This document shows positions 25,478 through 44,476 of a stretch of 64,000 bases of DNA, piece after piece; position 1 is the first letter of the stretch, and each line of letters opens with the position of its first letter. A model generated the notes under the pieces. It made no database searches. It saw only the letters and a list, made by a program, of their open reading frames with translations, and was not told the DNA's origin. Made by a program: the position numbers and the translations under genes. Source of the DNA: an uncultured Fodinibius sp. (GTDB lineage: Bacteria > Bacteroidota > Rhodothermia > Balneolales > Balneolaceae); assembly GCA_913057775.1 (NCBI GenBank), contig CAJXOG010000001.1, positions 124,001 through 188,000 of the forward strand. Direction: 5' to 3'.

Positions 25478-25578
25478 AAAGCCAGCAGTTGAGGGTGCTT
25501 TGATGAATCAAAGCTGAGAACAAACCTCCAATACTTACTTCAGGTGATGCTGAAATAAGGAAACTGCTGGCTTTTTTT
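25478..25578 (+). promoter_or_regulatory. TPP-riboswitch-like element with P1 stem doubling as terminator; no gene downstream
   Basis: The RNA folds as the thiamine pyrophosphate aptamer. Long P1 is AAAGCCAGCAGTT (25478-25490) with AACTGCTGGCTTT (25562-25574); P2 is GAGG/CCTC (25491-25494, 25525-25528); P3 is GCTTTGA/TCAAAGC (25497-25503, 25508-25514); then comes the invariant CTGAGA (25514-25519). The 3' part from 25532 aligns without gaps to the E. coli thiM aptamer from memory, with P4 CTTA/TAAG and P5 TTCAG/CTGAA around GTGATG. The J4/5 GAT and the pyrophosphate-side GCG are changed (ACT and AAA). Seven T follow P1. Downstream on this strand is only antisense of the ATPase gene. Confidence 0.6.
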
Positions 25579-28255
25579 ATTGATCGATAAATTCCAATTC
25601 CGGTCCATAAGCTTTCCACAGTTGTCCCACCAAAAGTGGAATGCTACTCATAACAAAAATCACGATCCATCCAGTTACCGTAGGAGGCGTAATTTTTAGA
25701 ACATTACTGAAGATCGGTACGTAAACCGCTATAAATAGCAACCCGGTACATAGCAGCAGTGCTCCCCAAACATAGTTATTGGTCGTTATTGTATTACCCC
25801 AAAGACTGGAATCACTGCTTCGCATGTTAAACACATGCCATAACTGGGCAAAAGCAAGTGTTAAAAAAGAAAGGGTTACCGCTTTATCCGCAGTTAAAAA
25901 CAGATATTCCATCCCAATAAAGAGTGACCCTAACACTGACAACGTTATAATAAACGCATAACCAGCGATCCCTATCCATTCACTGCTGCCCAAAATAGGC
26001 TGTTCGGGGTTGCGCGGCGACTTTCGCATAATCCCTTCTTCTCCCTCACCGACACCCAATGCCAAGGCCGGAAAAACATCAGTAACTAAATTTAGAAAGA
26101 GAATCTGTAATGGCAGAATTGGCAAGGCTGTTCCAATAATGGTCGCCATAGCAACCACCATCACTTCGCTTACATTGCACGACATCAGATAATAAATAAA
26201 GCGACGTATGTTATTAAAAATGACACGCCCCTGTTCTATTGCACTCACAATAGTCGAAAAAGCATCATCAGTAAGCACCATATCCGAGGCCTCTTGCGCC
26301 ACCTGGGTACCCCGCTGCCCCATAGCAATACCAATGTCAGCCTTTTTAAGAGCAGGAGCATCATTTACGCCATCCCCCGTCATCGCCACAATTTGCCCCT
26401 TCTTTTGAAACAGCTCGATAAGATCCAATTTTTGATTGGGACTCACGCGTGAAAAGACTGAGGTACGATAGATCCGATCCCCCTCGCTGCTATCAATATC
26501 CAGCTCGGAAATATCCGGCAGATCCCGACCGTGGATTGCTTCCCGTTTATCTAAATCAATTCCTACTGCCTCTGCAATTGATTCAGCTGTAGCTTTTTGA
26601 TCACCTGTTATCATCACCACCCGTATACCTGCCTGTTGACATCGCAAAATTGCAGGTTTTACATCACTGCGAGGCGGATCGCTCAGTGCAACAAAGCCCA
26701 ATAGTGTTAATTCCTCATAGGGATTATCCTTGGTTGTTTCCGCTGTTTTAACCGCCAATGCCAGCATGCGCAGGCCTTCTTGCCCCAATTTCAGGTTCAG
26801 TTCATCCCATTGTTTACGATCGTTTTCATGTAATGGTTGCTCTTTTCCATCAACCATAACTGTGTTACAAGCACCCAAAACAGCTTCCGGTGCCCCTTTC
26901 ACACATACCCGATACGCTCCATCCTTCTGTTCATTCCAGGTAGCCATCATTTTTACATCCGCATCAAAAGCTTCCTCCCGTACTTCCGGATATTCAGATG
27001 AGATTTCTTCAATATCTATTTCTGCTTTTTTAGCGGCTTCAAGCAAGGCAATCTCTAATGGATCACCCGTTCCTCCCTTTTCTTGATGATGCAGCGATGC
27101 GTTATTACAAAGAACCCCTACTTCCAGAGCCAGCCTCAAATCAGTGTACTCCATTAGTGCTTGTTCTGATAAGGGTATGTCCCGATCTCCTGACAGATAG
27201 ATACTGGTGGCCGTCATTTTGTTTTCTGTCAATGTTCCGGTTTTATCAGTACAGATAACACCAGTAGCTCCTAACGTTTCTACAGATGAGAGTCGGTTGA
27301 CCAAAGCATTTTTCTTTGCCATCAGCCGAATTCCTTTAGCCAGAGCTATAGTGGCAACAATTGGCAACCCCTCAGGAATGGCCGCTACCGCCAGCGCAAT
27401 ACCCGTTTCAACCATCAAATACAACTCTTTGCCCGCCCAAATACCTGATCCTACAACAAAGGCAGCAATAAGTAGGGTTACAGCAATTAAACGATAGCCA
27501 AGCCTATCGAGCCGTTCTTCGAGCGGTGTTTGCTCTTGTTCCGCTTCCTCAACAAGCGATGAAATTGCTCCCAGTTCGGTATCTAATCCGGTTGTTATTA
27601 CAACTGCCTCACCAGATCCGCGCGTTATTGCCGTTCCTTTATATAGCATACTACTCCGCTCAGCCAATACGGTGTCATCGGCAACCGCCTCAGTCTGCTT
27701 TGTAACCGGTAAACTTTCTCCCGTCAGCGCTGATTCATCAGCCTGGAGCTTGGATTGTTGAAGGATGCGCAAATCAGCAGTGATAATATCACCGCCCTCA
27801 ATAATAACTACATCTCCCGGTACCAATGCTTCAGCATCAATTTCTTTAGTTTCGCCCGCCCTGCGGACCCTCGTCCTCACTTTTCCCAGCTTAAAAAGCG
27901 CTTCCATGGAACGAACGGCACGCAGCTCGGTAAAAAATCCAATTCCGGTATTAATGACTATAACAGCAATAATAGCCCAACCATCCACATATTCACCTAG
28001 CCAAAATGCAAACAGTGCTGCAGCGGCCAAAAGTACGATAATAATACTCTTAAGCTGATCGATAAGGATCTCTACAACACTCCGCTTTTTGTGCCTGCGA
28101 AGTTGGTTGGGGCCATATTTTTGTTGACGCTTTTCCACCTCTTCAGGTGAAAGCCCATGTTCTGTATCAACCTCTAAGGTTCCAAGAACACCGTTGATAT
28201 CCAGTGCCCAGGGGTGTTTTTCAAAGAAAGGATTGGTTTCTGCTGATCGGTCCAT
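25577..28255 (-). CDS. P-type cation ATPase, P2A (calcium/SERCA-like) type
   Basis: An 892-residue ion pump. The N-terminal cation-ATPase domain has KYGPNQL near 50. The actuator motif DESALTGESLPVTKQ is near 170-185. The M4 ion-binding motif is AAIPEGLPIVATIALAKG near 285, the phosphorylated Asp is in CTDKTGTLTENKM near 336, nucleotide domain KGAPEAVL near 480, VVMITGDQKATAESIA near 570 and the hinge TGDGVNDAPALKKADIGIAMG near 655. Ten helices are implied. PEGLP marks P2 calcium- or sodium-type pumps; the ion is not proven. It starts 43 bases after the CheB-like gene, so they are likely cotranscribed. Confidence 0.92.
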   Translation of the reverse strand: MDRSAETNPFFEKHPWALDINGVLGTLEVDTEHGLSPEEVEKRQQKYGPNQLRRHKKRSVVEILIDQLKSIIIVLLAAAALFAFWLGEYVDGWAIIAVIVINTGIGFFTELRAVRSMEALFKLGKVRTRVRRAGETKEIDAEALVPGDVVIIEGGDIITADLRILQQSKLQADESALTGESLPVTKQTEAVADDTVLAERSSMLYKGTAITRGSGEAVVITTGLDTELGAISSLVEEAEQEQTPLEERLDRLGYRLIAVTLLIAAFVVGSGIWAGKELYLMVETGIALAVAAIPEGLPIVATIALAKGIRLMAKKNALVNRLSSVETLGATGVICTDKTGTLTENKMTATSIYLSGDRDIPLSEQALMEYTDLRLALEVGVLCNNASLHHQEKGGTGDPLEIALLEAAKKAEIDIEEISSEYPEVREEAFDADVKMMATWNEQKDGAYRVCVKGAPEAVLGACNTVMVDGKEQPLHENDRKQWDELNLKLGQEGLRMLALAVKTAETTKDNPYEELTLLGFVALSDPPRSDVKPAILRCQQAGIRVVMITGDQKATAESIAEAVGIDLDKREAIHGRDLPDISELDIDSSEGDRIYRTSVFSRVSPNQKLDLIELFQKKGQIVAMTGDGVNDAPALKKADIGIAMGQRGTQVAQEASDMVLTDDAFSTIVSAIEQGRVIFNNIRRFIYYLMSCNVSEVMVVAMATIIGTALPILPLQILFLNLVTDVFPALALGVGEGEEGIMRKSPRNPEQPILGSSEWIGIAGYAFIITLSVLGSLFIGMEYLFLTADKAVTLSFLTLAFAQLWHVFNMRSSDSSLWGNTITTNNYVWGALLLCTGLLFIAVYVPIFSNVLKITPPTVTGWIVIFVMSSIPLLVGQLWKAYGPELEFIDQ

Positions 28256-28298: not shown

Positions 28299-29435
28299 CT
28301 AAAATAAAAAATTGGTATTTATTACTTCTTTTTCCTGGTTATTATAATAATCTCTACCAATAAATAATGAGTGCTTAGTTATTTGCTGCGCAATATTTTG
28401 CGGGGTACAATATGTTTTGGTTAGTCCTTGCGAAATCGCCGATAATGGCAAGTCAGGAGCAATAGAAGATCGGGGATCCTGAACAATAATCTGGCCAGAA
28501 TGTTTTTTAATTTCTTTAGCGCCACCCAATCCATCACATCCACAACCGCTAAGTAACACTCCGAGAGTCTTATTCCCATATATTTTGGCTGCAGATCTAA
28601 ATAATACATCTATTGAGGGTCGCATACTATTTTCGCGAGGGCCGCGATGTACTGAAGCCACTATATCTGAAAACGACTGAGAAATTTCACATTGATACCC
28701 GCCGGGAGCAATATACGCGGTTCCAGCCTCCAGTTTTTCTCCGTTCTTCACCTCTCGGACAGGTATTTTGCAAAAAGCATCCAAGCAGGTAGCTAAATAT
28801 TCGGTGTACGTCCGCGGCAAATGCTGTACCACTACCAAAGGTATTGCCAAGTCTTTTGGCAAGTAACTCAGAATTGAAAATAACGCTTGCACTCCTCCCG
28901 TACATCCGCCCATCACTACAATTTCAATGGATTGCTGATCTTTTACTCCCGTTCTAAAATCCTCGAAACTTTTCTGAGGCTGAGTCAACGATTCAAGCAT
29001 GAGCTTATCCAGATTCTTAGGCTGTCTCATCTCATAAATAGCCGTAATTAAAGGCTCTAATCTTTTCTTTAAATGTCGCTCTGCAAATAAAATTAGATTC
29101 TTTGATTCCGGTTTAGTAATAAAATCAATAGCTCCCAGTCGTAGAGCCGTTATCGCTGCTTTTGCTCCTTCTTGGTTGCGTGGACTTATTACAACTATCG
29201 GCAAATTGTTGAAGGTAGACCGTATTTTCTGCAAAATATCCAATCCTTCTCCCTCGATATTTTCGAGACTCAACAAAATAATATCAGGTGATGTGTTGCG
29301 AATAACTGTTTCTACCGTATCAAATTCATCAATTAACCAAAAAACGCGGAACTCTTCTCGCTGTTGCAGAATAGTCGTTATCGCCCTTCTGACAAGAATA
29401 TTTTCGTCAATAATCAAAACCTTTATGGCATCCAT
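28299..29435 (-). CDS. CheB-like protein with degenerate receiver and Cys in place of catalytic Ser
   Basis: A 378-residue protein with a receiver domain (about 1-125) and a CheB methylesterase domain (about 168-355). The receiver keeps the acidic pair (IIDEN) and Lys108 (FITKPE), but the phospho-acceptor position reads Ser56 (DIILLSLEN), not Asp. In the esterase, the GASTGG motif is GGCTGG, so the nucleophile position is Cys178; His205 (VVQHLP) and Asp301 (GCGCDGLGG) are present. CheB normally removes methyl groups from chemoreceptors, but no che gene is near. ATG at 29435 fits the receiver start; ATG at 29474 would add 13 residues. Confidence 0.85.
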   Translation of the reverse strand: MDAIKVLIIDENILVRRAITTILQQREEFRVFWLIDEFDTVETVIRNTSPDIILLSLENIEGEGLDILQKIRSTFNNLPIVVISPRNQEGAKAAITALRLGAIDFITKPESKNLILFAERHLKKRLEPLITAIYEMRQPKNLDKLMLESLTQPQKSFEDFRTGVKDQQSIEIVVMGGCTGGVQALFSILSYLPKDLAIPLVVVQHLPRTYTEYLATCLDAFCKIPVREVKNGEKLEAGTAYIAPGGYQCEISQSFSDIVASVHRGPRENSMRPSIDVLFRSAAKIYGNKTLGVLLSGCGCDGLGGAKEIKKHSGQIIVQDPRSSIAPDLPLSAISQGLTKTYCTPQNIAQQITKHSLFIGRDYYNNQEKEVINTNFLF

Positions 29436-29568
29436 GGTGAATAAATTTTTGGGGCAGTCAAATTGGAATTCCATGAAAATGATTATATATAAATATTTGC
29501 CAATTAAATGTACGTGCTACGATATTATAGATGTAAGAATTTCCACTACGCTATAACTCCGAAAATTC

Positions 29569-32500
29569 CTACTCTTCAATAATGATTCTTAACTGATGGG
29601 TTCCCGCCTTATCTGGAATCAAACATCTAACCGCATCGTTTTTTACGACAACAGAAGAACCGTTTAACGATGCAGTTATGGTTCCTTTGGATAATTTATC
29701 GGGATTCAGTATCTCGATGTGCAACGCAATATCACGCCCTCTATTTCTAATCCAACATTCGTACTTTTTCCATGAAGAAATGATAGTAGGCCTAACCTGA
29801 ACCTTGTTACCATCAACAACGGTTATGCCCAAAAGAGATTCCAGAACCACACGATACATCCATCCCGCCGAGCCGGTGTACCAAGTCCAGCCCCCCATTC
29901 CCACCAGAGGATTCTCCCCATAGATATCAGCTACAACCGCATAAGGCTCAACCTGATAGCGTTCTACATCTATACTATTTAAAGCATGATTAACAGGTAA
30001 AAGCATCTTCATATACGAAATAGCTTTTTCCATTTTCCCGGCTTCTGCAAACGCTTTAACCAACCATAATGCAGCATGTGTATATTGACCACCATTTTCG
30101 CGAACTCCAGGAATATATCCTTTGATATAACCGGGATTTTTCTCGGTTATATCAAAGGCAGGGGTAAGCAACTTAATAATTCCATCTTGCTTTGATACCA
30201 GATACCGTTCTGCTGCAAGCAGTGCTTTTTCCATTTTAGAAGGCGTTCCGGCTCCAGAAATTGCCGACCAAGCCTGCGCAATAGCATCTATACGACACTC
30301 ATCGTTTTGAGATGATCCCAGCGGGGTACCATCATCATAATAAGCCCGCCGATACCATTCACCATCCCATCCCTCATTATTGAGATGCTTTTTTAACTCT
30401 TTTTTATATTTACGGTATTGGTCAAGTCGGTTCCTGTCATCAAATTTTTTAACGATCGGAATAAAATCATCCAAAATAGTATAGAGAAAAAATCCCAGCC
30501 AGATACTTTCTCCTTTGCCATCAACACCCACTTTATTCATCCCATCATTCCAGTCTCCTCCGCCTATTAATGGCAATCCATTTGCACCCTTGGTCAGCGA
30601 GCGATCGATAGCCCTGCAACAGTGTTCATATAATGATGCCTGTCGATGAGATACCTCCGGCTGTAAGTAGGCCTCATGCTCTCCTTCATACAGTTGGCGT
30701 GCTTCTAAAAAAGCAACCTGCTCATCTAAAATAGCAGTGTCACCGGTGTTATTGATGTAAAAAGCGGTTGTATAAGGCAGCCAAAGCAGATCATCTGTAA
30801 TAAGCGATCGAATGCCCCTATCGGTTGGAGGATGCCACCAATGCAGTACGTCCCCCTCCTCAAACTGATGAGCAGCATGCAACAAAATTTGCTTACGGGT
30901 AAGTTCTGGATCCAAATAACAGGCCGCCGTAGCATCCTGTAGCTGATCACGAAATCCGAATGCCCCACCCGCCTGATAGAATCCAGTTCGCCCCCACATT
31001 CGGCAGGCTATATTCTGATATTGCAACCAACCATTCATTAAAATATTTAATTCCGGTTCTGGTGTCTTAACGCTGACACCATCCAGTTTTTGTCGCCAGA
31101 ATGTTTTAACATCACCAAGTGACTGCTTAATGACGTCAGGATCCTGATACTTATTGATTAACTTTCGCCCCTCCTCTTGATGTTGTACTTCCCCCAGGTA
31201 GAAATAGATTTCGGCTGATTCACCTGATTTCAATTCTAATGAAAACTGGTGTCCGGCACAGGATTCAAACTTCATCCCAAAACGTCCATTTAAGGTAGTA
31301 CCATCCTTTACTGCTTTTGGGCTTTGTAGATTCCGATTACGTCCAATAAACGATTGACGATCGGAGGAATATGAAACTGAATGGATATTTTTATTTACTA
31401 CAAAACCTGAAAAAGCAATCCGTCCCGCAAACTCATTGTTGTAATAATTGCGTGCAAAGATGGCTTGCATCTCTTCATCAACTGAAGTTAGGATCTGTCG
31501 CGTTGCATCCTCCCTGAACACCCCCAATACCCAATCGGTATATCCAAACAACGTTAACTTTTTGTCCATCAAACCTTCATTAGACAGCCTGAGCTTCTTG
31601 AATTTTATGGGATCATCTTTATCAACCCACGTACTTACTTCCTGCTCTATATTCATGGTCGTACTTCTGTAGGTAGAATATCCGTGTCCGTGTCTTATTT
31701 CATATTCAGCACTACCCGGTATCGGTTGCGGCATGGGGGACCAAAATAGCTTTTCATCCTCATCACGTATATATATAGCCTCTCCAGATGGATCCAATAC
31801 CGTATCATTCGACCACGGCGTAAGTTTATTCTCCCTGCTATTTTTACTCCAGCTGTATGAGGATCCTTTATCAGTCGTCAAAAAGCCAAAGTTTGGATTT
31901 GCTATAACATTAATCCACGGAGCCGGAGGAAAGAGTAACTTTCGGGTATCCGGATCGGTGCGGAGTGTAATAACATATTCATGGCCGTTGGCAGAAAATC
32001 CACCATATCCGTTATAAAACAGTAAATCATCCCCAACATTTTCGGCTTCGTTTTTAGCATGGACATATTCCACTGCCTTATATGTTGCCCCCTTATTATC
32101 AGCAATTTCTACTTGCTCCTGCTCTTTCAGCTGTGCAAGGTTGGGCAGTTTTCCGGTAAGAACCACGTGGGCTACCGAATTGATAAGGATATTATCTTCC
32201 CGGTTTAACTCATCACTGCGGAGGATAAAAACTCCTCCCTTTTCTCGCTGGGTATGACGCTCGGTAGTCTGCTGTAACTGCTGCTGAATTAATTCCTGGA
32301 GTTCGTTTACATACGAGGGTGGATGATTATTCATAAAAACCAAATCAACCTTTAAGCCACGTTGACGCCAAAAATGATGCGCTTTGAGCAGTAGCGTAAC
32401 TTCCCGCATATATTTTTTTTCATCAATGTGGTACACCAAGATGGGGACATCCCCTGATATTCCATGAGCCCAAAGTCCAGATTGTATTTTCCGATTTTGG

Positions 32501-35500
32501 GTTAACGTATTTTCATCAGCACGCAAAGCTTCACAGTTATACACAAGATAACTTGTGAGGTGTTGAATATACTGAGCTTGCTCACCGCTTAGTCCCACAT
32601 GCTCCAGTTCTACATTGCCGTAGATAGAAGCCAGTTCAAAAACTCGATCCGTAGCATAAGGATTGTCATATCGGTCGCCCATAGCCACCGCCTCATCACG
32701 ATTGGTGACTCTTCCAAGTCCAAACGTGATATTCTTTTTTTTACCCGGATTGAGGGTTACAACTCTTCGAATGCTAACAATAGGATCTTTTACATTCCCA
32801 ACCCTACCACTAAGTCGTGCTCCTTTGTCCATTGCCCTAGGGGCCTGCATTGATCGGTTGCGCCCGATAAAATGCTCACGATCTGTTTCAATCTGCAGCT
32901 CTTGTGCATAACTGTCAGCATCCTCACTTGCAATAGTATGCACAAGCCAAATGGGATCTTCATCATCTGAACGGGGACGTCGTTTTGCCAATATTGAGTG
33001 ATGTTCCTGCAGGTATTCGGTTTGAACAAATAAGTTTGAAAATGCCGGATGAGCCCGGTCAGCCTGCTGGGTATTTAAAACGACTTCGGCATAACTGGTA
33101 ATCTCAATCTTCCGCTGACGTTCGGAATAATTTGTCAAAGTTATTTTTCGCAGCTCTATATTATCTTCCGGCGAAACGCAGATCTCCATAAATGTTTCAA
33201 TCCAATCGTCTACGCGAGCAATCTGTACTTTCCCGGTATGGAACCATGAATCATAACGATCAGCCTTTCGCTTAACCGGTTGATGACCGGCTGACCAGTA
33301 ATTACCACTTTCCAAATCCCGGATATAGAAAAACATGCCATAATGATCGGTCACCACATCTGATCGCCATCGGCTAAGCATGAGATCATCAGCATAGGAA
33401 TAGCCGGTCCCTGAATGTGTAATCAACGTCGAATATTCTCCGTTTGAAAGGATATGTGTTCGAGGGGGTGTATCGTCTAAATCTTCTATGCTGGCATGAT
33501 CCACTACATTTTTCGTCCGTTCTTCTTCGGCCGGCTCAAGTTCTATATCGATGGGACGCGGTTCTTTAATGGGAATTCCTCTTGGAATGCGCTCTTGTAA
33601 AAGCAATTCACAGGATCGAACCAAGGGATGATCATGGAATAGTTGTTGTATCCGGTTGTTCTCCAGTACATTCAGCAGAGCTAATAAACTCATGCCTTGG
33701 TGATGTGCCATATACATTTTTACGACAGCGCTGTTACTGGCATCCTCTTTAGCCAAGTTCCGGGGCGTGTAGTCCACAGCTTCATAAAATCCACTTGCCC
33801 CATAAGCACCCTCATCACGCAATTCCTGCAAATTACTTAGCGCATGCCTTGAATCCACCATCAACGCCAGCATACCGGCATAAGGTGCCACCACATAATC
33901 TTCGGCCAGTCCTCGGCGTAAACCCAATCCTGGCACACCAAATGCTCGATATTGATAATGTAGTTCCAAATTTCGCACGTTATATCCACTTTCAGAAAAA
34001 CCCCAGGGCTTGTTCCGCAGCGATCCATAATTTCGTTGCCAAAGAACCACATTTTCGTAGGTGTTACTAAGAAGTGTATTATCAAATTGGGACATAAACA
34101 GCAATGGCATAAGGTATTCGAACATAGTGCCACCCCAGGAAAGTAGAATTTCATTGCGTTCGATGCTTGTTAGTCGGCGGCTTAACCGAAACCAGTGCTC
34201 TGGCGGCACTTCGCCCTTCGCTATCGCAATAAACGATGCCAGCCGAGCCTCGCTGGCTAAGAGATCATAATAGCTGTTATCCAGATGGGCTCGATCCACA
34301 TTATAGCCAATGCTAAATAGCTCACGATCGGGTTCGTAAACAAGCGAAAAATCCATTTCCTGAACCATATGGCGACAAATTGAGCTTAACTGGCCTGCCC
34401 TTGCAATAAGATCACTGTATGCAGTATCACTAAACTTTTCTTTGTCATCTGAGGCTCTGTTACTGGTACCCTTTAGTTCCTCTATTTCATCCAGTTGACC
34501 CTGAATCTGAATCAACGGACGTTGAAGCCAGTCACTCCACTCATGACTTTGTTGATCTTCCAACGAATACTCTAAAATACCTGTAGAAAGTTCCTCTAAT
34601 TTTTCTGCATCCTCCCGCAATTTCAACAAAATATCTTTCCATTTTTTGAGGGACTCCGGTGAAATTTTGGGAATTTTGTTCCTAATCTGCTTAGCAATTG
34701 TATTTACTTCCCCTACGAATTTTTTGTAATTAGCACTCTTTTTATACTCGGCAAACAGATCCTCCAAAACCTGAATAGTATCCTGCAAACCAGCCCAAAA
34801 CGCCGGATTGGGACAAGGTTGTTTATCCAGTTGATTCAATGCCTGTTCAATAACCAGCAGTGAGGCTGCCAAATTTCCTGAATCAACGGTGGATACATAG
34901 TTTGGATTTAATACAGCACCTAACTTCGTGCTGTACCAGTTATAGAAATGACCACGGTACCGCTCGAGTTTACTCATCGAAGAAAGCATGTTATCCAGCT
35001 GTGTTACCATTTCGGTCAGGGAGAGATATCCCATCTCAAAAGCCGAATATACAGCCGTCAGTGCCAAACCCATATTGGTAGGTGATGTGCGCCCTACAGC
35101 CCCGATATACGGTTCTTCCTGAACATTATCAGGGGGAAGCCAAGAATGTTCTTCATTAACATGCTGCTCAAAGAAATGCCAAGTTCTGCGTGCATATTGG
35201 CGCAACTCTTGATACTGTTTGTGTGATAACCCTCGTTTTTCACTTTTAAGCGAACGTCCCAAAAAGTAGGTTCCATAAGGTGCCAGTAACCATCCTAAAC
35301 AAATGGGAACAGCAATAAATAAAACGGTAGTACTAAAAATACTTACCAGTACTAAACAAAGTCCGCTCCAAACAATATTGGGCGTCATCTTTTGCCAATA
35401 ATCCCAGAATGATCCATTAGCATGCTGTTTTTCAACTTGGGTAGCTGTGGTCCATTCCAATAAATCTTTTTTAGATACAAACAGCCGATAAAGTGTTCTA

Positions 35501-38187
35501 TAGATAGCATCTAAAGAGATAAAAGCCTGGTGTGGAAGGTTCAAAAAGCTCGTCACGGCTTGTATGGTATTCATTTTAATATCCACACGAATTTTATCCA
35601 GATACAGGCGCCACCCTACCCGCTGTGGACGTTGAAAAATATCGGTAGAGAAACTGGAGTAGATGGGAAATGCCACAATACCAAATACGGCGGCCGTCCA
35701 TATCAGGGCCGAGCCGGGCAGAAAAATCCATCCGGCCAACAAGAACAATAACAGTGCCGCGGGATTTATGGATCGGCGCAGATTATCAAATATTTTCCAC
35801 TTTGAGATACTGTTAATGGGATTATGCTCTTTCTCAGTATCTCCTTTAGGCACCCTATTAAATAACCAAAACAAAATCTGCCAATCACCCCGAATCCACC
35901 GGTGGAGCCGTTTTGAAAAACTCAAATAGGTTGTGGGATAATCATCAAAAAGTTCTATGTCCGTCAGTAAGGCCGCCCGCAGGTATGTGCTCTCCAACAA
36001 GTCATGCGATAATATTTGGTTCTCTGGAAAGCGATTTCCGAGCACTGATTCAAAAGAATCCAAGTCGTAAAGTCCTTTGCCGGTAAAAACTCCTTCCCCA
36101 AAAAGATCCTGGTAGATATCGGAGACGGCGGTAGTATAGGGATCAAGGCCAACGTTGCCAGAATAGATTTTGGCAAACATGGTTTTATTAGCCGACTTGG
36201 GCGGGATGGATATACGCGGCTGAAATATCCCGTATCCTTTCGTTACAATGTTTTTATCGGTATCAATCTCTGCTCGATTAAGCGGATGGGCAGCGGTACC
36301 GATAAGCATTTTAGCACTTCCCGGGGGCAGTTTGGTATCGGCATCGAGCGTTATCACAAATTTAATCGGAAGTTTTTGAGCGGATGCTAAAAAATCTCCC
36401 GACATTTCTATGAAACTCGTTTGTGCCTCCCTATTTTTCAGCAGTTGGTTAAATTCCTCGATTTTTCCTCGTTTTCGCTCCCATCCCATCCATTTCTGCT
36501 CGGCATTATTCCATAGTCGTTTTCGATGGAAAAACAGAAACTTGTCACCATACTTGGATTGGTACTGCGCATTCAGTCGATTGATTTGCTTGCGGGCAGC
36601 TTCCAAAATGGCTTCATCTCCTTCTTTGGTTTCAGTCTCGGCATCAAGAAAATCTGAGATGATGGCAAACTGCAGCGATTTGTTGGCATTCGCCAGAGCA
36701 CGGATTTCAAGTAGTTCAAATTGTGCTTCCACATCGGCAGGTGAAGACAACATGGTTGGCACAATTACAACAGTTCGGTACTCATCGGGAATAGCCCCAT
36801 CAAATTCGAGTTTGGGTAAAATGCGGGGTGGAATTAGAAAAGAAAGCAATCGATTGGTGGAAACGATAGATAAATCAAGAGCCGGCAGCCAGGATATAAT
36901 TAGCGTGAGGATAATCATCCAACTTTCGCGAGCTAATAAATTAGCAACAAGCCCAATTATGGCAATAAGGATGACAAAATGAATCCCAATAAAGAAAAAG
37001 TAGATTGCCCGATACTCTTTTGCCAATTGTCGCAAGCGTTCATCAAGTGGCTTTTGGTACGAGAGCTTTTGATGCAGGCCAGCATAGCCTTCATCAATTA
37101 GATAGTAGCCAATATGCATTTTTTTACTGCGCCGATTTGTACCGTTCTGGGCAGCGCTTTCGGCCATCATCAATGCCTGTTCAGCTACCTCCTGCTCGCT
37201 ATATGATGAATGAGCACTATGCTTCTCCACTATTTTGCGGTAGCGGTCGCGCGTGCTAAAATCCATACGCGAATACATATCAGCTGGATCAAGTCGCAGA
37301 ATTCGATCAACAACCGAACAGCTCTCTACAAAAAGTGACCAGTCAGTTTCCGAAACTTCTCGCAGCGACGATATTGCATTTTGGATACTTAAATGCAGCC
37401 GCGATGTTTGTTGCATTCGATCTCGGAGCTGTTCCTCCAAATTGGTTTCCCAGCGCGAGAGTTTATAATTGAACCAACGACGTTCATTTTCGGTAAACAT
37501 ACCCCGCGACTGCAGGCGCTGAGCTAAAATTACCAAATAACGTATTGAGTCGTTCTTCTGGTCAACAATTTCGGACAGTTTTCGAAGCAAAAATCCGGGT
37601 TCTTCGATGTTACCCAATATTTTATTACTTAGCAGCGCATCAATATCATCCTGAATCTTCCGATCTCTGAGAAGCTTTTTACTTCGTTGGGCCAACCGTA
37701 CAATAAGGGCTAACCGATTCATTAGCGGCACCGACCACATCTCTGCCAAATTTAAAATATCTACTTCCTGATAGGCCCGAATGGCAATAGTAGTATTCTC
37801 TCGGTCGATGGTGTTATCGCTGATCGATGCCAGCAGCTGTATAATCTCATAAGTTCTCGGATATCCCTTAAACTCGCCTTGCGTTAGCCGCGGCAACTTT
37901 TCATAATATGATTTGGGCAAATCTGCCTGCAGCTGTACAATCTGCTCTTGGATAATATAAAAGTTGTCAATAAGCCATTCGCCCGCCGAACTTAACTCCC
38001 GATTTAGCTTGGCTGCCCGGGCTAAAACAGCATAGGTTTCGTTGAGGGTCTTTTTTGCCGATACCAAAATTTCATCGATAGATTGCAATGGTCTGGCATC
38101 AAGCGTAATCTGTTGCAATTCAGCGAGTTGGCGTATCTCCTCTTCCAGATATTGTTTATTAAAATGGACTTGTGTTTCTGTAGCCAT
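29569..38187 (-). CDS. ndvB: cyclic beta-1,2-glucan synthase (NdvB/ChvB/Cgs type)
   Basis: A 2872-residue membrane enzyme. Order of parts: helical N-terminus; membrane helices near 395-450; GT84 glycosyltransferase with the metal-binding FVITLDADTKLPPG near 614 and HDLLESTYLRAAL; further helices about 785-1010; glucoamylase-like domain around 1300-1500 (YQYRAFGVPGLGLRRGLAED near 1425); then two GH94 phosphorylase-type regions from about 1580 and 2090, with the Asp of LIGGGDWNDGMNKVG near 2542. In Rhizobium and Brucella this protein primes, elongates, trims and cyclises periplasmic beta-1,2-glucan for osmotic adaptation. Length matches. No ABC exporter (ndvA) is adjacent. Confidence 0.93.
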   Translation of the reverse strand: MATETQVHFNKQYLEEEIRQLAELQQITLDARPLQSIDEILVSAKKTLNETYAVLARAAKLNRELSSAGEWLIDNFYIIQEQIVQLQADLPKSYYEKLPRLTQGEFKGYPRTYEIIQLLASISDNTIDRENTTIAIRAYQEVDILNLAEMWSVPLMNRLALIVRLAQRSKKLLRDRKIQDDIDALLSNKILGNIEEPGFLLRKLSEIVDQKNDSIRYLVILAQRLQSRGMFTENERRWFNYKLSRWETNLEEQLRDRMQQTSRLHLSIQNAISSLREVSETDWSLFVESCSVVDRILRLDPADMYSRMDFSTRDRYRKIVEKHSAHSSYSEQEVAEQALMMAESAAQNGTNRRSKKMHIGYYLIDEGYAGLHQKLSYQKPLDERLRQLAKEYRAIYFFFIGIHFVILIAIIGLVANLLARESWMIILTLIISWLPALDLSIVSTNRLLSFLIPPRILPKLEFDGAIPDEYRTVVIVPTMLSSPADVEAQFELLEIRALANANKSLQFAIISDFLDAETETKEGDEAILEAARKQINRLNAQYQSKYGDKFLFFHRKRLWNNAEQKWMGWERKRGKIEEFNQLLKNREAQTSFIEMSGDFLASAQKLPIKFVITLDADTKLPPGSAKMLIGTAAHPLNRAEIDTDKNIVTKGYGIFQPRISIPPKSANKTMFAKIYSGNVGLDPYTTAVSDIYQDLFGEGVFTGKGLYDLDSFESVLGNRFPENQILSHDLLESTYLRAALLTDIELFDDYPTTYLSFSKRLHRWIRGDWQILFWLFNRVPKGDTEKEHNPINSISKWKIFDNLRRSINPAALLLFLLAGWIFLPGSALIWTAAVFGIVAFPIYSSFSTDIFQRPQRVGWRLYLDKIRVDIKMNTIQAVTSFLNLPHQAFISLDAIYRTLYRLFVSKKDLLEWTTATQVEKQHANGSFWDYWQKMTPNIVWSGLCLVLVSIFSTTVLFIAVPICLGWLLAPYGTYFLGRSLKSEKRGLSHKQYQELRQYARRTWHFFEQHVNEEHSWLPPDNVQEEPYIGAVGRTSPTNMGLALTAVYSAFEMGYLSLTEMVTQLDNMLSSMSKLERYRGHFYNWYSTKLGAVLNPNYVSTVDSGNLAASLLVIEQALNQLDKQPCPNPAFWAGLQDTIQVLEDLFAEYKKSANYKKFVGEVNTIAKQIRNKIPKISPESLKKWKDILLKLREDAEKLEELSTGILEYSLEDQQSHEWSDWLQRPLIQIQGQLDEIEELKGTSNRASDDKEKFSDTAYSDLIARAGQLSSICRHMVQEMDFSLVYEPDRELFSIGYNVDRAHLDNSYYDLLASEARLASFIAIAKGEVPPEHWFRLSRRLTSIERNEILLSWGGTMFEYLMPLLFMSQFDNTLLSNTYENVVLWQRNYGSLRNKPWGFSESGYNVRNLELHYQYRAFGVPGLGLRRGLAEDYVVAPYAGMLALMVDSRHALSNLQELRDEGAYGASGFYEAVDYTPRNLAKEDASNSAVVKMYMAHHQGMSLLALLNVLENNRIQQLFHDHPLVRSCELLLQERIPRGIPIKEPRPIDIELEPAEEERTKNVVDHASIEDLDDTPPRTHILSNGEYSTLITHSGTGYSYADDLMLSRWRSDVVTDHYGMFFYIRDLESGNYWSAGHQPVKRKADRYDSWFHTGKVQIARVDDWIETFMEICVSPEDNIELRKITLTNYSERQRKIEITSYAEVVLNTQQADRAHPAFSNLFVQTEYLQEHHSILAKRRPRSDDEDPIWLVHTIASEDADSYAQELQIETDREHFIGRNRSMQAPRAMDKGARLSGRVGNVKDPIVSIRRVVTLNPGKKKNITFGLGRVTNRDEAVAMGDRYDNPYATDRVFELASIYGNVELEHVGLSGEQAQYIQHLTSYLVYNCEALRADENTLTQNRKIQSGLWAHGISGDVPILVYHIDEKKYMREVTLLLKAHHFWRQRGLKVDLVFMNNHPPSYVNELQELIQQQLQQTTERHTQREKGGVFILRSDELNREDNILINSVAHVVLTGKLPNLAQLKEQEQVEIADNKGATYKAVEYVHAKNEAENVGDDLLFYNGYGGFSANGHEYVITLRTDPDTRKLLFPPAPWINVIANPNFGFLTTDKGSSYSWSKNSRENKLTPWSNDTVLDPSGEAIYIRDEDEKLFWSPMPQPIPGSAEYEIRHGHGYSTYRSTTMNIEQEVSTWVDKDDPIKFKKLRLSNEGLMDKKLTLFGYTDWVLGVFREDATRQILTSVDEEMQAIFARNYYNNEFAGRIAFSGFVVNKNIHSVSYSSDRQSFIGRNRNLQSPKAVKDGTTLNGRFGMKFESCAGHQFSLELKSGESAEIYFYLGEVQHQEEGRKLINKYQDPDVIKQSLGDVKTFWRQKLDGVSVKTPEPELNILMNGWLQYQNIACRMWGRTGFYQAGGAFGFRDQLQDATAACYLDPELTRKQILLHAAHQFEEGDVLHWWHPPTDRGIRSLITDDLLWLPYTTAFYINNTGDTAILDEQVAFLEARQLYEGEHEAYLQPEVSHRQASLYEHCCRAIDRSLTKGANGLPLIGGGDWNDGMNKVGVDGKGESIWLGFFLYTILDDFIPIVKKFDDRNRLDQYRKYKKELKKHLNNEGWDGEWYRRAYYDDGTPLGSSQNDECRIDAIAQAWSAISGAGTPSKMEKALLAAERYLVSKQDGIIKLLTPAFDITEKNPGYIKGYIPGVRENGGQYTHAALWLVKAFAEAGKMEKAISYMKMLLPVNHALNSIDVERYQVEPYAVVADIYGENPLVGMGGWTWYTGSAGWMYRVVLESLLGITVVDGNKVQVRPTIISSWKKYECWIRNRGRDIALHIEILNPDKLSKGTITASLNGSSVVVKNDAVRCLIPDKAGTHQLRIIIEE

Positions 38188-38725: not shown

Positions 38726-41443
38726 TCAGCCGATAAAATGCTTGCGCCAGTGGTTCACTATTTTGTCGAGTTCACCGCCCAATATGACTAAAGAACCAAC
38801 TGCAAATATCATGATCCATTGGTCGATTGTAAGTGGAACAGTTCTAAAAATCATTTGCATAAAATCAACGTAGAGCAGCGAAATATGCGCTAATAACGCC
38901 ATGAACAGACTAATAAATAAAAACTTATTTGAGAAGAAATTAATCTTAAACAGACTCCGGTCCAGTGACCGACAATTTAGAACATGGAAAAACTGGAAAA
39001 CAACCATTTGGGTCATTGCCACTGTACGAGCCATATCCAAATCATTGGTCTGCTCCATCGTCCGCCAAAACATGTACAGCGTTCCAGCAGCTAAGACAAT
39101 GCCTACGCCCCCCAGTCGCTCTATCAGCCTGCCAGTTAGAATACCTTCGCCAGATGCACGTGGTTTGCGTTTTAGGATGCCGGGTTCGCTAGGTTCAAAG
39201 GCAAGTGCAATATCCTGTAACCCATTAGTTACCAGGTTAATCCATAGAATTTGTACGGCAATGAAAGGCAATGGCCAGTTCATAAGAATGGCAATAAAAA
39301 TGACGATCAATTCGCCAACAGCCGTTGATAACAAGAAAAATGTTACTTTGCGAATGTTTGAAAATACAATGCGTCCCTCTTCAATAGCTGCCGTAATAGT
39401 AGCAAAATTATCATCAGAAAGTACCATATCTGAGGCTTCTCTTGCTACATCAGTCCCTCCTTTCCCCATCGCCACACCAAGATGGGCTGCTCGCAACGCT
39501 GGAGCATCGTTAACGCCATCGCCTGTAACAGCTACTACATGTTCCAGGGCTTTCAAGCGCTCTACAATACGGAATTTGTGCTCTGGCGTAACACGAGCAA
39601 ATATATTAATATTCATCAGCTTTAAATCCAGTTCTTCATCTGAAAGCAGATCCAAAGCCTTACCTTCCAATGCACCCTGTTCGTCTGAATCAATCCCCAG
39701 CTGACGTCCGATGGCCACGGCGGTATCTATATGATCACCGGTAATCATTACCACCCTGATCCCAGCCTTATGAGAGGTTTCTATGGCTTCTTTCACTTCC
39801 TGACGAATAGGGTCCTCCATCCCCTGTAAGCCAGCTAATATAAATTGATCATTACTAAAAGAATCCTCAAAAAACATATCAGAGCTGCTTTCTTGATAAG
39901 CCATCGCCAACACACGCAATCCCTGCGCGGCCATTTCTCTGGCTGCTAATCGTATATTGGATCGATCAATCGGTACAATTTGACCGTTTACCAACTGCTT
40001 CGAACATTTATCCAGTACTTTTTCCGGAGCTCCCTTGATAAAAATGAACCGCTCATCCCCACTTTTGTTTAAGGTGGCCATAAATTGCCTTTCGGGTTCA
40101 AAAGGAAAAATATCAACCTCTTGCATCGATAATCGAATATCAGAAAGGCGCAGTCCTCCTTTATAAGCCGATACATGAAGCGCAATTTCTGTAGGATCGC
40201 CCTGAGGCTCACCGGACTCAAGCGTACTTACATCAGCTTCATTCGCCAAGGTACCGGTTATCAATGTTTTATAAAGACCGCTTTCTCGATTTATTGAAAT
40301 CGGTTTATCGTTTTCAAGTATCGTTCCCATAAGCTGATATCCTGTTTCGGCGGTGGTAAAAACTTTATTATCAGCCCAAATTTGTCGCACTGTCATTTGA
40401 TTTTTAGTAAGCGTCCCAGTTTTATCGGAACCAATAACAGTAGTACTGCCCAGCGTCTCCACAGCGGGGAGCGACCGAATAATCGCATTTCTATTTGCCA
40501 TCCTGCTTACACCAATAGCCAACGTCACCGTAAGAACGACGGGCAATCCCTCTGGAATAGCTGATACGGCCATAGCCACAACCGTGATAAATATCTCATT
40601 AGGACTCATTTCATTAATAATCCCAATAACAGCAATAAGTACCGAAAAGCCGATAATGAGATAACCTATGTAGTGCCCAAGCTCGTCCACTTTTTCTTGC
40701 AGAGGAGTCTTGACATTTCCAATATTTTGAACGGAAGTGGCAATTTTACCCAGCTCTGTTGCACTCCCTGTACGAACGACTACGGCCTTAGCTCGACCTT
40801 TCGCCACAATAGTACCAGCAAAAACCATGTTTTTTTGATCAGCCGGCAACAGTGAATCCTCTACTAAACGATCACTGGTTTTTCGAATAACTGCTGACTC
40901 TCCTGTAAGCGCTGACTCATCCACTTCTAACCCTTTGGCGGATACCAGTCGCATGTCGGCCGAAATGCGTCCGCCGGAACTCAATAAAACGATATCCCCG
41001 GGGACTAAGGCACTGCTCGCAATTTCCAGCTCCCGTCCCTCGCGTATGACATGAGCTCTTGGAGCACTTAATTTAGCAAGTGCTTGAATGGCACTCTGGG
41101 CCTTTATTTCTTGAATATATCCAATTATCGCATTGAGCAATACGACCGCCATAATCACGGATGAATCAAGGTAATCCTGTAAAATAAGGGTCACAAAGGC
41201 AGCTGCTAATAAAATATAAATGAGCGGATCTTTAAACTGATGAAGTGCAATCTGCCACCGGGTTAATCCTTCTTCAGCTTCAATTTTATTGGGCCCCCAA
41301 TATGCCAGACGCTCGTTTGCTTCCGCCTGATCCAATCCTCGGTGCTGCGATGTATCAAGGTTCTCACAAACAACTTCAGCTGCCAAGTTATACCATGGAT
41401 CTGTTACACCTCGAGACTCTTCTATTCCAGTGCCCTCATACAT
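38726..41443 (-). CDS. P-type cation ATPase, P2 type (second copy class)
   Basis: A 905-residue ion pump: cation-ATPase N-terminus with YWGPNKIEAEE near 50, actuator DESALTGESAVIRKT near 173, M4 SAIPEGLPVVLTVTLAIG near 292, phosphorylated Asp in GSDKTGTLTKNQM near 340, nucleotide domain KGAPEKVLDKC near 475, VVMITGDHIDTAVAIG near 565 and VTGDGVNDAPALRAAHLGVA near 640. It is of the same P2 class as the pump at 25.6-28.3 kb but clearly diverged, so not a recent duplicate. GAGGG lies six bases before the ATG. A terminator follows. Confidence 0.92.
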   Translation of the reverse strand: MYEGTGIEESRGVTDPWYNLAAEVVCENLDTSQHRGLDQAEANERLAYWGPNKIEAEEGLTRWQIALHQFKDPLIYILLAAAFVTLILQDYLDSSVIMAVVLLNAIIGYIQEIKAQSAIQALAKLSAPRAHVIREGRELEIASSALVPGDIVLLSSGGRISADMRLVSAKGLEVDESALTGESAVIRKTSDRLVEDSLLPADQKNMVFAGTIVAKGRAKAVVVRTGSATELGKIATSVQNIGNVKTPLQEKVDELGHYIGYLIIGFSVLIAVIGIINEMSPNEIFITVVAMAVSAIPEGLPVVLTVTLAIGVSRMANRNAIIRSLPAVETLGSTTVIGSDKTGTLTKNQMTVRQIWADNKVFTTAETGYQLMGTILENDKPISINRESGLYKTLITGTLANEADVSTLESGEPQGDPTEIALHVSAYKGGLRLSDIRLSMQEVDIFPFEPERQFMATLNKSGDERFIFIKGAPEKVLDKCSKQLVNGQIVPIDRSNIRLAAREMAAQGLRVLAMAYQESSSDMFFEDSFSNDQFILAGLQGMEDPIRQEVKEAIETSHKAGIRVVMITGDHIDTAVAIGRQLGIDSDEQGALEGKALDLLSDEELDLKLMNINIFARVTPEHKFRIVERLKALEHVVAVTGDGVNDAPALRAAHLGVAMGKGGTDVAREASDMVLSDDNFATITAAIEEGRIVFSNIRKVTFFLLSTAVGELIVIFIAILMNWPLPFIAVQILWINLVTNGLQDIALAFEPSEPGILKRKPRASGEGILTGRLIERLGGVGIVLAAGTLYMFWRTMEQTNDLDMARTVAMTQMVVFQFFHVLNCRSLDRSLFKINFFSNKFLFISLFMALLAHISLLYVDFMQMIFRTVPLTIDQWIMIFAVGSLVILGGELDKIVNHWRKHFIG

Positions 41444-41587
41444 TATGTACCCTCGATATTTTTTGTATTCTTAGTTGCAGTATTATTACTGCTACTCTCT
41501 TTATTTATTATTCTACCAAGATTTAAAGAATAGCATCTACATAAACACTTTAACAATAATACCAGACACTTTTAGCAATATATTTAT

Positions 41588-41627
41588 AAAAACAATAAAA
41601 AGGGCCACGCTTTATAACGCAGCCCTT
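41588..41627 (-). terminator. intrinsic terminator after hsp20
   Basis: On the minus strand AAGGGCTGCG (41627-41618) pairs with CGTGGCCCTT (41609-41600), with two G-T pairs and an 8-base loop, followed by TTTATTGTTTTT. It lies 26 bases past the hsp20 stop. Confidence 0.82.
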
Positions 41628-41653
41628 AAAATTAAACTATTAAAAGAATGTGA

Positions 41654-42106
41654 CTATTCAATGGGTACTTCTTTTCGTTTGCTTTTTTCAACTTTTGGAA
41701 CCGTCACTCTTAAAATGCCCTCTTTAAAAGTAGCTTTGACTTTATCCTCTAAAATTGAAGTCGGTAGAATTATTGAACGTTTAAAAGCTCCAAATGAGCG
41801 CTCACTCCGTAAATATCCCGGACGCTCTTCTTTATGACCTTTTTTTCGCTCTCCTTCAATAGATAACACATTATCCTGGCAGTTAATCTGTATGTCCTTC
41901 TTGCTAAGCCCGGGTAACTCAACTTCGACAATATATTCTCCATCTGTTTCAAACATATCTGTGGTTGGTGTCCAGCTGGTCATTCCGGTCTCAGAATCAT
42001 CCAATCTCCAATTAAAGGGAATAAGTTCATTAAAAATGCGATCCATTTCTCTTCTTAAATTGCTTACCGGGGCAGTCGAGGGCTGATATCTGGTTAGTTG
42101 TTTCAT
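41654..42106 (-). CDS. Hsp20/alpha-crystallin small heat-shock protein
   Basis: A 150-residue chaperone that holds unfolding proteins in solution without ATP. The alpha-crystallin domain covers about 42-140: PTTDMFETDGEYIVEVELPG, LSKKDIQINCQDNVLSIEGE, RSFGAFKRSIILP and the closing FKEGILRVTVPK. The C-terminal I-x-I/V-type tail is weak (KEVPIE). The N-terminus (about 1-40) carries the amphipathic LRREMDRIFNELIPF. A strong Shine-Dalgarno AAAGGAG sits 7 bases before the ATG, unusual for this genome and suggesting high expression. The upstream gap has a TGTAGGG-type site (42248-42264). Confidence 0.95.
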   Translation of the reverse strand: MKQLTRYQPSTAPVSNLRREMDRIFNELIPFNWRLDDSETGMTSWTPTTDMFETDGEYIVEVELPGLSKKDIQINCQDNVLSIEGERKKGHKEERPGYLRSERSFGAFKRSIILPTSILEDKVKATFKEGILRVTVPKVEKSKRKEVPIE

Positions 42107-42247
42107 AATAACTCCTTTCCTTCCTTTTATGATTTATGTTGATGTCTTATGGGAAAAATCCCAATTAGATTGAACATAAACCATGTAAGGCAGTAGATGT
42201 GCAATAGGTTCTATAGTAGAGTTGTAAGCGTAAAAGAAATTTAACGA

Positions 42248-42264
42248 TAGGTGAACTCCCTACA
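42248..42264. promoter_or_regulatory. TAGG-N9-CCTACA-type site upstream of hsp20
   Basis: TAGGTGAACTCCCTACA; on the minus strand it reads TGTAGGGAGTTCACCTA, an imperfect inverted repeat related to the sites upstream of the histidine kinase and DUF1761 genes. It lies 142 bases upstream of the hsp20 start. Role as a regulator site is inference. Confidence 0.3.
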
Positions 42265-42333
42265 TAACGATTGAATAAATATTGCCGTTTTGGCACGGGC
42301 AAGTAGTGTACCAGGAATTTCTGCTGCTGTATG

Positions 42334-43005
42334 CTAATAAATTCCGGAATGCTCGTTCTCAACCCATTTAACAGCATGAACCATTAATTCAGTAGCATTC
42401 TCCAAGTTAAGTTTTGTTTTTATCCGGGCACGATATGATTCTACTGTTTTAACTGAGAGATGAAGTTTTTCGGCAATATCGCGGGTACTGTTGCCTTTGC
42501 CGGTTAACTCAAAAACTTCCAATTCGCGATCACTTAGTTTCTCAATGGGTGATTCCATCACCTCCTTTTGACCGCGTGCCATTCCCAACAGTAACCGTTC
42601 GCTTACCTCTTCACTCACATAGATACCCCCATTAAACACCTTTCTGACGGCCTTAAGTAACACTTCACTGGCTTCGAGCTTCATCACATACCCTTTTGCT
42701 CCGGCTCGGATAACACGCTCGGCATAAAGCGATTCATCATGCCGTGAGACTACCAGTATTTTTTGGTCCTCTTTCTGGGATATTATATGCTTTACCAATT
42801 CTAGGCCGCCCATTCCCGGTAGAGATATATCAACAATAATTAGATCGGGATTGAGATCATCCAGCCGTTGAATAAGTTCTTCACCGCGGTCAAGTTGATC
42901 AATTACCTCATATGCAGGATCAGAATCAAGGGTAAGAGCAAGTCCCTTACGCATTAAAGGATGATCATCAACTAAAACAATACTTTTCTTAAATTTGGTA
43001 GACAT
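42334..43005 (-). CDS. NarL/FixJ family response regulator
   Basis: A 223-residue two-component output protein. The receiver (about 8-125) has the acidic pair VDDHP, phospho-acceptor Asp59 in LIIVDISLPGMGG, the Thr/Ser switch SRHDES near 88 and Lys in GYVMKLE near 110. The C-terminal LuxR-type HTH (about 152-215) reads LSDRELEVFELTGKGNSTRD and IAEKLHLSVKTVESYRARI. It starts 17 bases after the histidine kinase stop, so they form a kinase-regulator operon. Likely targets are the TGTAGGG or palindromic sites nearby; that link is inference. Confidence 0.93.
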   Translation of the reverse strand: MSTKFKKSIVLVDDHPLMRKGLALTLDSDPAYEVIDQLDRGEELIQRLDDLNPDLIIVDISLPGMGGLELVKHIISQKEDQKILVVSRHDESLYAERVIRAGAKGYVMKLEASEVLLKAVRKVFNGGIYVSEEVSERLLLGMARGQKEVMESPIEKLSDRELEVFELTGKGNSTRDIAEKLHLSVKTVESYRARIKTKLNLENATELMVHAVKWVENEHSGIY

Positions 43006-43022
43006 GGGAGTTCACCGGTTTT

Positions 43023-44435: not shown

Positions 44436-44476
44436 CACTACTACTCCGTTTTTAAGGAAAATACTCCTTATTCAAA

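Follow-up and report, generated by a model that had tools for sequence, protein, structure and literature searches.

What does a CheB-type protein do once cysteine occupies its nucleophile position, its receiver lacks the phospho-acceptor aspartate and its gene lies away from any chemotaxis locus? This question is raised by a 64,000-nucleotide stretch of DNA from an uncultured Fodinibius sp., referred to below as the window. The first-pass annotation of this DNA had described such a gene, here called Cys-CheB, and had left two fates open for its product, an enzyme working through an acyl intermediate or a binding scaffold. The gene, its two domains and the codons of its key residues are located as follows:

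28299-29435, minus strand: Cys-CheB gene, 378 amino acids plus stop (translation, ORF list and Pfam)
29091-29420, minus strand: degenerate receiver domain, residues 6-115 (Pfam PF00072, 2e-15)
29268-29270, minus strand: codon of Ser56, where CheB has its phospho-acceptor Asp (alignment to 1a2o)
28380-28919, minus strand: CheB methylesterase-type catalytic domain, residues 173-352 (Pfam PF01339, 2.7e-53)
28902-28904, minus strand: codon TGT of Cys178, the nucleophile position (alignment to 1a2o)
28821-28823, minus strand: codon of His205, the triad base (alignment to 1a2o and relatives)
28533-28535, minus strand: codon of Asp301, the third triad residue (alignment to 1a2o and relatives)

The start was set at 29435, in agreement with the homologues; an alternative ORF start at 29474 gives 391 amino acids, with 13 extra residues that are absent from homologues. 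Residue equivalences were taken from an alignment with Salmonella CheB (1a2o), whose numbering was counted off that alignment. Cys178 corresponds to Ser164 and Thr179 to Thr165, His205 and Asp301 match His190 and Asp286, meaning that both triad partners are kept, Cys298 stands in place of Met283, and Ser56 falls on the phosphorylated Asp56. The alignment confirmed what had been read from the letters alone, namely a GGCTGG motif with Cys178, retention of His205 and Asp301, and Ser56 instead of the receiver Asp. In the receiver, D10/E11 are present and K108 is kept beside S56, and further Cys residues are found at 298 and 300, close to the active site. Compared with NCBIfam PRK00742 (CheB), the protein scored 267.4 bits and thus stayed below the curated 293 bits. 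The four closest orthologues (74, 74, 59, and 56% identity) all combine GGCTGG with a non-Asp residue in the receiver. A sequencing or assembly error was ruled out by GGCTGG in these four orthologues, which come from other genomes, and by low dN/dS.

An AlphaFold2 model of the window protein, built from a 56-sequence alignment, reached a mean pLDDT of 88.8 and a pTM of 0.86. The model aligned over its whole length with CheB 6ymz_D (Z 41.9, 1.9 A, 322 residues) and matched CheB 1a2o_A equally in kind (Z 40.0, 2.6 A, 325 residues); the predicted fold of the catalytic domain also matches 3sft and 1chd. As modelled, the protein has the whole CheB architecture, with changes in the active site and in the receiver. 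It shares with CheB (1a2o, 6ymz) a REC domain followed by CheB_methylest, the full-length fold, the catalytic His and Asp, and a nucleophile loop containing GG, but differs in having Cys for Ser, in missing the phospho-acceptor Asp and in the loss of Met283; across the Cys-CheB clade described below, the second acid of the Mg pair is mostly lost, too. CheB domains are likewise used outside classical chemotaxis operons in CheB-CheR-PAS fusions, for example in L172 (1083-9194, minus strand), where a relative (genome G052) encodes a 2704-aa CheB-CheR-multi-PAS-GAF-histidine kinase fusion known from Pfam domains alone. Unlike the window protein, these fusions have no receiver in front and are joined to CheR and kinase domains. 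The same G052 frame had been considered as a CheB-synthase fusion that would directly prove a partnership, and was rejected on account of these domains.

We searched the window protein in 128 genomes of the order and aligned 73 CheB-like rows, which comprise the best loci and chosen further places. Trees were built with the two trait columns, i.e., nucleophile and receiver Asp, removed, and the careful tree held 39 clade rows and 11 outgroup rows. Among the 73 rows, 39 form one clade with support 100/100, apart from the 34 canonical CheBs of order-mates, all of which have Ser together with Asp. Within the clade, the nucleophile is Cys in 34 rows, Ser in four (L008, L010, L012, and L016) and Gly in one (L027). 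The receiver Asp is absent from 31 clade rows, which have Ser, Gly, Glu or Asn at this site and Cys at the nucleophile without exception; the eight rows that keep the Asp, among them L007, L009, and L011, divide into four with Ser, three with Cys and one with Gly. His205 and Asp301 are kept in all 38 relatives as well as in the query, down to about 30% identity. This comparison shows a clade of CheBs with a Cys at the presumed nucleophile and, judging by its residues, a phosphate-blind receiver. The first-pass annotation had asked whether Cys and Ser56 are conserved in a clade of non-chemotaxis CheBs and had stated that phosphate could not act on this receiver as a normal switch; these rows bear out the conservation of Cys and of the missing Asp, and they support the statement on the receiver. 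The Gly row, L051/L027 (codon GGT), is a synthase-linked member that has probably decayed or turned non-catalytic.

A wider scan with search patterns that did not contain the nucleophile kept 80 loci, one genome per species, of at least 344 confirmed relatives outside the group. Ser and Asp occur together in 79 of these 80 kept loci, and the exception, L093, has Cys and Gly. L093 derives from a Balneolaceae MAG (SLPZ01000174.1), and the sequence of L093 includes the L029 locus of G055:C31 without a single difference, an identity that puts the family of the window with Balneolaceae. A different residue at the nucleophile in a broad alignment had been named earlier as an outcome that would speak against the assignment; instead, all 79 canonical CheBs from elsewhere have Ser in this column, as do all 113 canonical rows compared when the 34 order-mates are included. 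Among 394 genomes of the phylum, a DNA pattern for the Cys motif, which catches only 25 of the 39 known clade rows, had matches in nine, each belonging to family f1, and Cys-CheB is likely restricted to this family as far as such sequence patterns can tell. In the partial texts available from the literature on CheB with a Cys nucleophile, on Balneolaceae and on non-chemotaxis or glucan-synthase links, we found no such protein.

The clade also deviates from canonical CheB around the triad. Thr165 is present in 34/34 canonical order-mates versus 11/38 clade relatives, and Met283 in 34/34 versus 0/38. Cys298 of the window protein recurs in only four of the 38 relatives. Of the 38 relatives, three have D or E at position 11, the second acid of the receiver Mg pair, and 35 retain Lys108. 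In the linker helix, all clade rows (39/39) share Arg125, a residue that varies in canonical CheB. Replacement of Met283 throughout the clade means that the substrate has probably changed. Taken together, the rebuilt pocket and linker (Thr165, Met283, position 11, and Arg125) suggest that both substrate and mode of control would differ from those of canonical CheB.

The codons at the nucleophile position left a trail. In canonical CheB the Ser codon is TCN in all 34 order-mates and in the 79 others (113/113), and the Cys codon of the clade is TGT or TGC in 33/33 relatives and TGT in the window, whereas the four clade Ser rows all use AGT. The step from TCN to AGY takes two changes, and Cys TGY is one step away from either; AGT in all four rows is what would be expected if Ser returned from Cys. 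These rows sit at two places on the tree, with L008 and L010 nested beside the Cys row L007 (99/96). The simplest reading would be an exchange of Ser for Cys at the base of the clade, followed by two returns to Ser; two gains of Cys are equally cheap by parsimony, at four changes. Thr could also have linked the two kinds of Ser codon, and no Thr was seen at the nucleophile among the 39 clade rows. Pairwise dN/dS over the whole gene (Nei-Gojobori) ranged from 0.05 to 0.20 in 12/12 pairs, and in most pairs it was lower in the catalytic domain than in the linker, with synonymous sites near saturation in several pairs.

This pattern bears on whether the protein is an enzyme at all. Alternatively, the protein might have lost catalysis and persist because it binds the synthase or other neighbours as a scaffold, with the Cys in a structural role. 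The receiver is degenerate throughout, one copy has Gly in place of the nucleophile, and Thr165 and Met283, both invariant in canonical CheB, are mostly or entirely gone from the clade relatives; the losses of Met283 and, in many rows, of Thr165 could mean lost catalysis. However, a scaffold has no need for a Cys-to-Ser exchange in two lineages, nor for a nucleophile column that is Cys or Ser in 38/39 rows next to an invariant His and Asp. Exchanges confined to two residues that can both act as nucleophile, next to an unvarying His and Asp, argue for catalysis, one decayed copy aside, and the invariant His and Asp together with low dN/dS make an active Cys enzyme likelier than a scaffold, which we consider unlikely. 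Of the two fates left open by the first-pass annotation, the enzyme is therefore favoured by the long-kept Cys, the invariant His and Asp and the replacement of Cys only by Ser in two lineages. On these comparisons Cys-CheB probably is an enzyme, a statement that we make with some confidence.

Which protein this enzyme would act on is best approached from the genes around it. The earlier description placed the gene between a glucan synthase and a P-type ATPase, and we confirmed this order, with all three genes on the same strand:

29569-38187, minus strand: cyclic glucan synthase, upstream neighbour (Pfam; 8rf9 matched over residues 48-2822)
25577-28255, minus strand: Ca-type P-type ATPase, downstream, 43 bases past the CheB stop codon
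38280-38606, minus strand: DUF5335 protein, directly upstream of the synthase (Pfam; in 10/21 neighbourhoods)

By the extent of its match, the window synthase is a full-length homologue of a known cyclic glucan synthase. Further upstream, on the minus strand (38726-44438), the window carries a second P-type ATPase, an Hsp20, a NarL-type response regulator and a PAS histidine kinase, a set of genes that looks like a stress-response island. Apart from a nested branch discussed below, 28 clade rows could be compared, and the synthase lies directly upstream on the same strand in 24 of them, two with an 88- or 114-codon frame in between and some with synthases cut by contig ends. In the other four, the synthase is one gene apart (L183) or 12 kb away on the same strand (L036/L197), or the neighbourhood is cut by contig ends (L198, L202). 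The next downstream gene in the 28 rows encodes Usp in 13, a P-type ATPase in 11 and neither in four, one of which is at a contig end. In L036 and L040, CheB is followed by Usp and then by ATPase, an arrangement that points to synthase, CheB, Usp, and ATPase as a possible ancestral operon.

The two genes also occur together across genomes. We read 83 genomes by hand, all of them at least 90% complete and no more than 5% contaminated; 23 have both genes (including G025 with a decayed CheB copy), four have the synthase alone (G050, G077, G092, and G108), none has Cys-CheB alone and 56 have neither (Fisher p 1e-16, not corrected for shared ancestry). The four good genomes with the synthase alone indicate that the synthase is independent of Cys-CheB. 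In the host genus, both genes are present in 11 of 12 genomes and neither in G013. L192 (G092), from another family of the order, has a cyclic glucan synthase with 57% identity and no CheB beside it. In the part of the structural account of Agrobacterium Cgs available to us, all soluble domains are cytoplasmic, no CheB-type partner is mentioned and the word 'chemotaxis' appears zero times in the main text (PMC10901819). Gene order, co-occurrence and the cytoplasmic location of all soluble Cgs parts in that account make the synthase our candidate target, although we put this forward tentatively and at somewhat less than an even chance.

The genes on the other side have to be considered as well. 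An active Cys enzyme might instead act on the downstream Usp or Ca-type P-type ATPase, with the synthase being merely a co-regulated stress gene. One or the other is the immediate downstream gene on the same strand in 24/28 rows, and the gap on this side, at 26-184 bases (22 of the 24 rows measured), is usually shorter than that on the synthase side (21-478 bases). Yet the downstream gene alternates between Usp and ATPase and is neither of the two in four rows, whereas the upstream synthase is constant, and we regard a downstream target as improbable. Cys178 could also work as a thiol redox switch that senses oxidants and turns over no substrate, a reading that fits the stress genes around it (Usp, Hsp20) and the additional Cys298 and Cys300 near the active site of the window protein. 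The scarcity of Cys298 among the relatives argues against it, as does the fact that a sensor would not need an invariant His and Asp, making a redox switch highly improbable.

The genome content leaves little room for chemotaxis. The host genome, of 3.1 Mb and with a listed completeness of 100%, gave a single match to PF01339, in the Cys-CheB gene itself, and CheW, CheR, MCP (MCPsignal), and CheD were not found in searches that matched control genomes. Hence, the bacterium appears to be without a chemotaxis system, and its genome, without any CheR, CheW or receptors found and with the gene adjoining a glucan synthase, differs from the setting of 1a2o and 6ymz. The original claim of a position outside any chemotaxis locus stands, and a che gene set elsewhere that would use Cys-CheB as its sole CheB was rejected as a candidate on the same searches. 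CheW is present in 41/128 genomes of the order and absent from 11 of the 23 genomes read by hand that have both Cys-CheB and synthase; relatives with CheW carry a canonical CheB near it, separate from Cys-CheB, e.g., L084 in G014 and L089 in G019. Despite the full-length CheB fold, the idea of a chemotaxis CheB of the usual kind whose substitution does no harm is contradicted by this genome content and by the separate canonical CheBs and can practically be dismissed.

Since no CheR was found in the genome, removal of CheR-made methyl esters by Cys-CheB is very unlikely. Deamidation of glutamine is the other known reaction of CheB (methylesterase / protein-glutamine glutaminase). The molecule title of 6ymz also names glutamine deamidation (glutaminase) activity. 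With CheR-made esters very unlikely, glutamine deamidation would be the simplest remaining chemistry for Cys-CheB.

In nature, hydrolase triads seldom change their nucleophile. Engineered swaps between Ser and Cys are typically harmful in the part of a triad survey available to us (PMC9825947), and a Ser-to-Cys exchange often kills engineered Ser hydrolases according to the accessible text of a second study (PMC6642262). According to the same portion of the survey, nearly every Ser triad uses the N-epsilon of His; three exceptions have the disfavoured N-delta geometry, among them CheB, which is insensitive to DFP. For Cys triads both geometries are described there, and outside peptidases those of the N-delta type are seen only in transferases (PMC9825947). 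From the N-delta triad of CheB and the tolerance of Cys for both geometries, we infer that CheB may be a favourable scaffold for a move from Ser to Cys. A transferase reaction through a thioester is a further possibility.

A nested branch of eleven rows within the clade (100/99), all with Cys and with Gly at the receiver site, occupies a different place on the chromosome. Seven of its eight neighbourhoods longer than 10 kb adjoin nuo (complex I) genes, with L056 and L058 left out of the count. These are L176-L182, which correspond to the CheB rows L031, L052-L055, L057, and L059, and here CheB is usually divergent from the first nuo gene; in L177, NADH dehydrogenase genes of the chain 3, 20 kDa and 49 kDa types were confirmed by Pfam. 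The L093 neighbourhood has no nuo genes, and neither does L203, a short contig. Four genomes (G025, G041, G044, and G049) contain both kinds of Cys-CheB, and the nested branch therefore looks like the result of duplication and relocation. The position of this branch beside complex I genes means that the target need not be the synthase.

For catalysis, the amide or ester bond attacked, co-transcription and target alike, we infer the following course of events. A CheB-family hydrolase would have left chemotaxis in the ancestors of a Balneolaceae group, exchanged its Ser nucleophile for Cys and lost the phosphate switch of its receiver, and would now serve the operon for cyclic beta-1,2-glucan synthesis. 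With His205 and Asp301 as activating residues, Cys178 would attack the amide or ester of a glutamyl side chain in some cytoplasmic partner and form a thioester acyl-enzyme, from which water would then release glutamate. The dead receiver would no longer be a phospho-switch but a lid, either fixed or responsive to a partner. The glucan synthase would be the most likely partner, with the Usp or P-type ATPase, encoded in the same operon, in second place. That Cys-CheB is a phosphate-independent Cys hydrolase, i.e., an esterase or deamidase, serving the glucan-synthase operon is a reading to which we give an even chance. Three points go beyond the first-pass annotation: the loss of Met283, the codon trail, and the proposed operon with the cyclic glucan synthase.

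CheB is an unusual starting point for such a change, as the histidine of its Ser triad already has an orientation more favourable to Cys than to Ser. For studies of a change of nucleophile and of the loss of a phosphate switch, a series is at hand in closely related proteins that differ in having Ser or Cys and in having or lacking the receiver Asp. A wider picture is possible but doubtful: this CheB branch may be a dedicated phosphate-independent Cys deamidase/esterase whose post-translational action regulates a large enzyme of the membrane on its cytoplasmic face. The main lineages would act in this way on the synthase, and the nested, paralogous branch perhaps on complex I. The nucleophile may have started as Ser (TCN), become Cys (TGY) and reverted to Ser (AGT) in two lineages, which would be a Ser-Cys-Ser cycle of natural origin in an N-delta triad. 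If the target is the glucan synthase, this would be protein-modifying control of cyclic beta-1,2-glucan synthesis, of a kind not seen in the available part of the Cgs structure paper (PMC10901819). The conserved place beside a cyclic-glucan enzyme suggests that, in these bacteria, CheB chemistry may have been given a new job.
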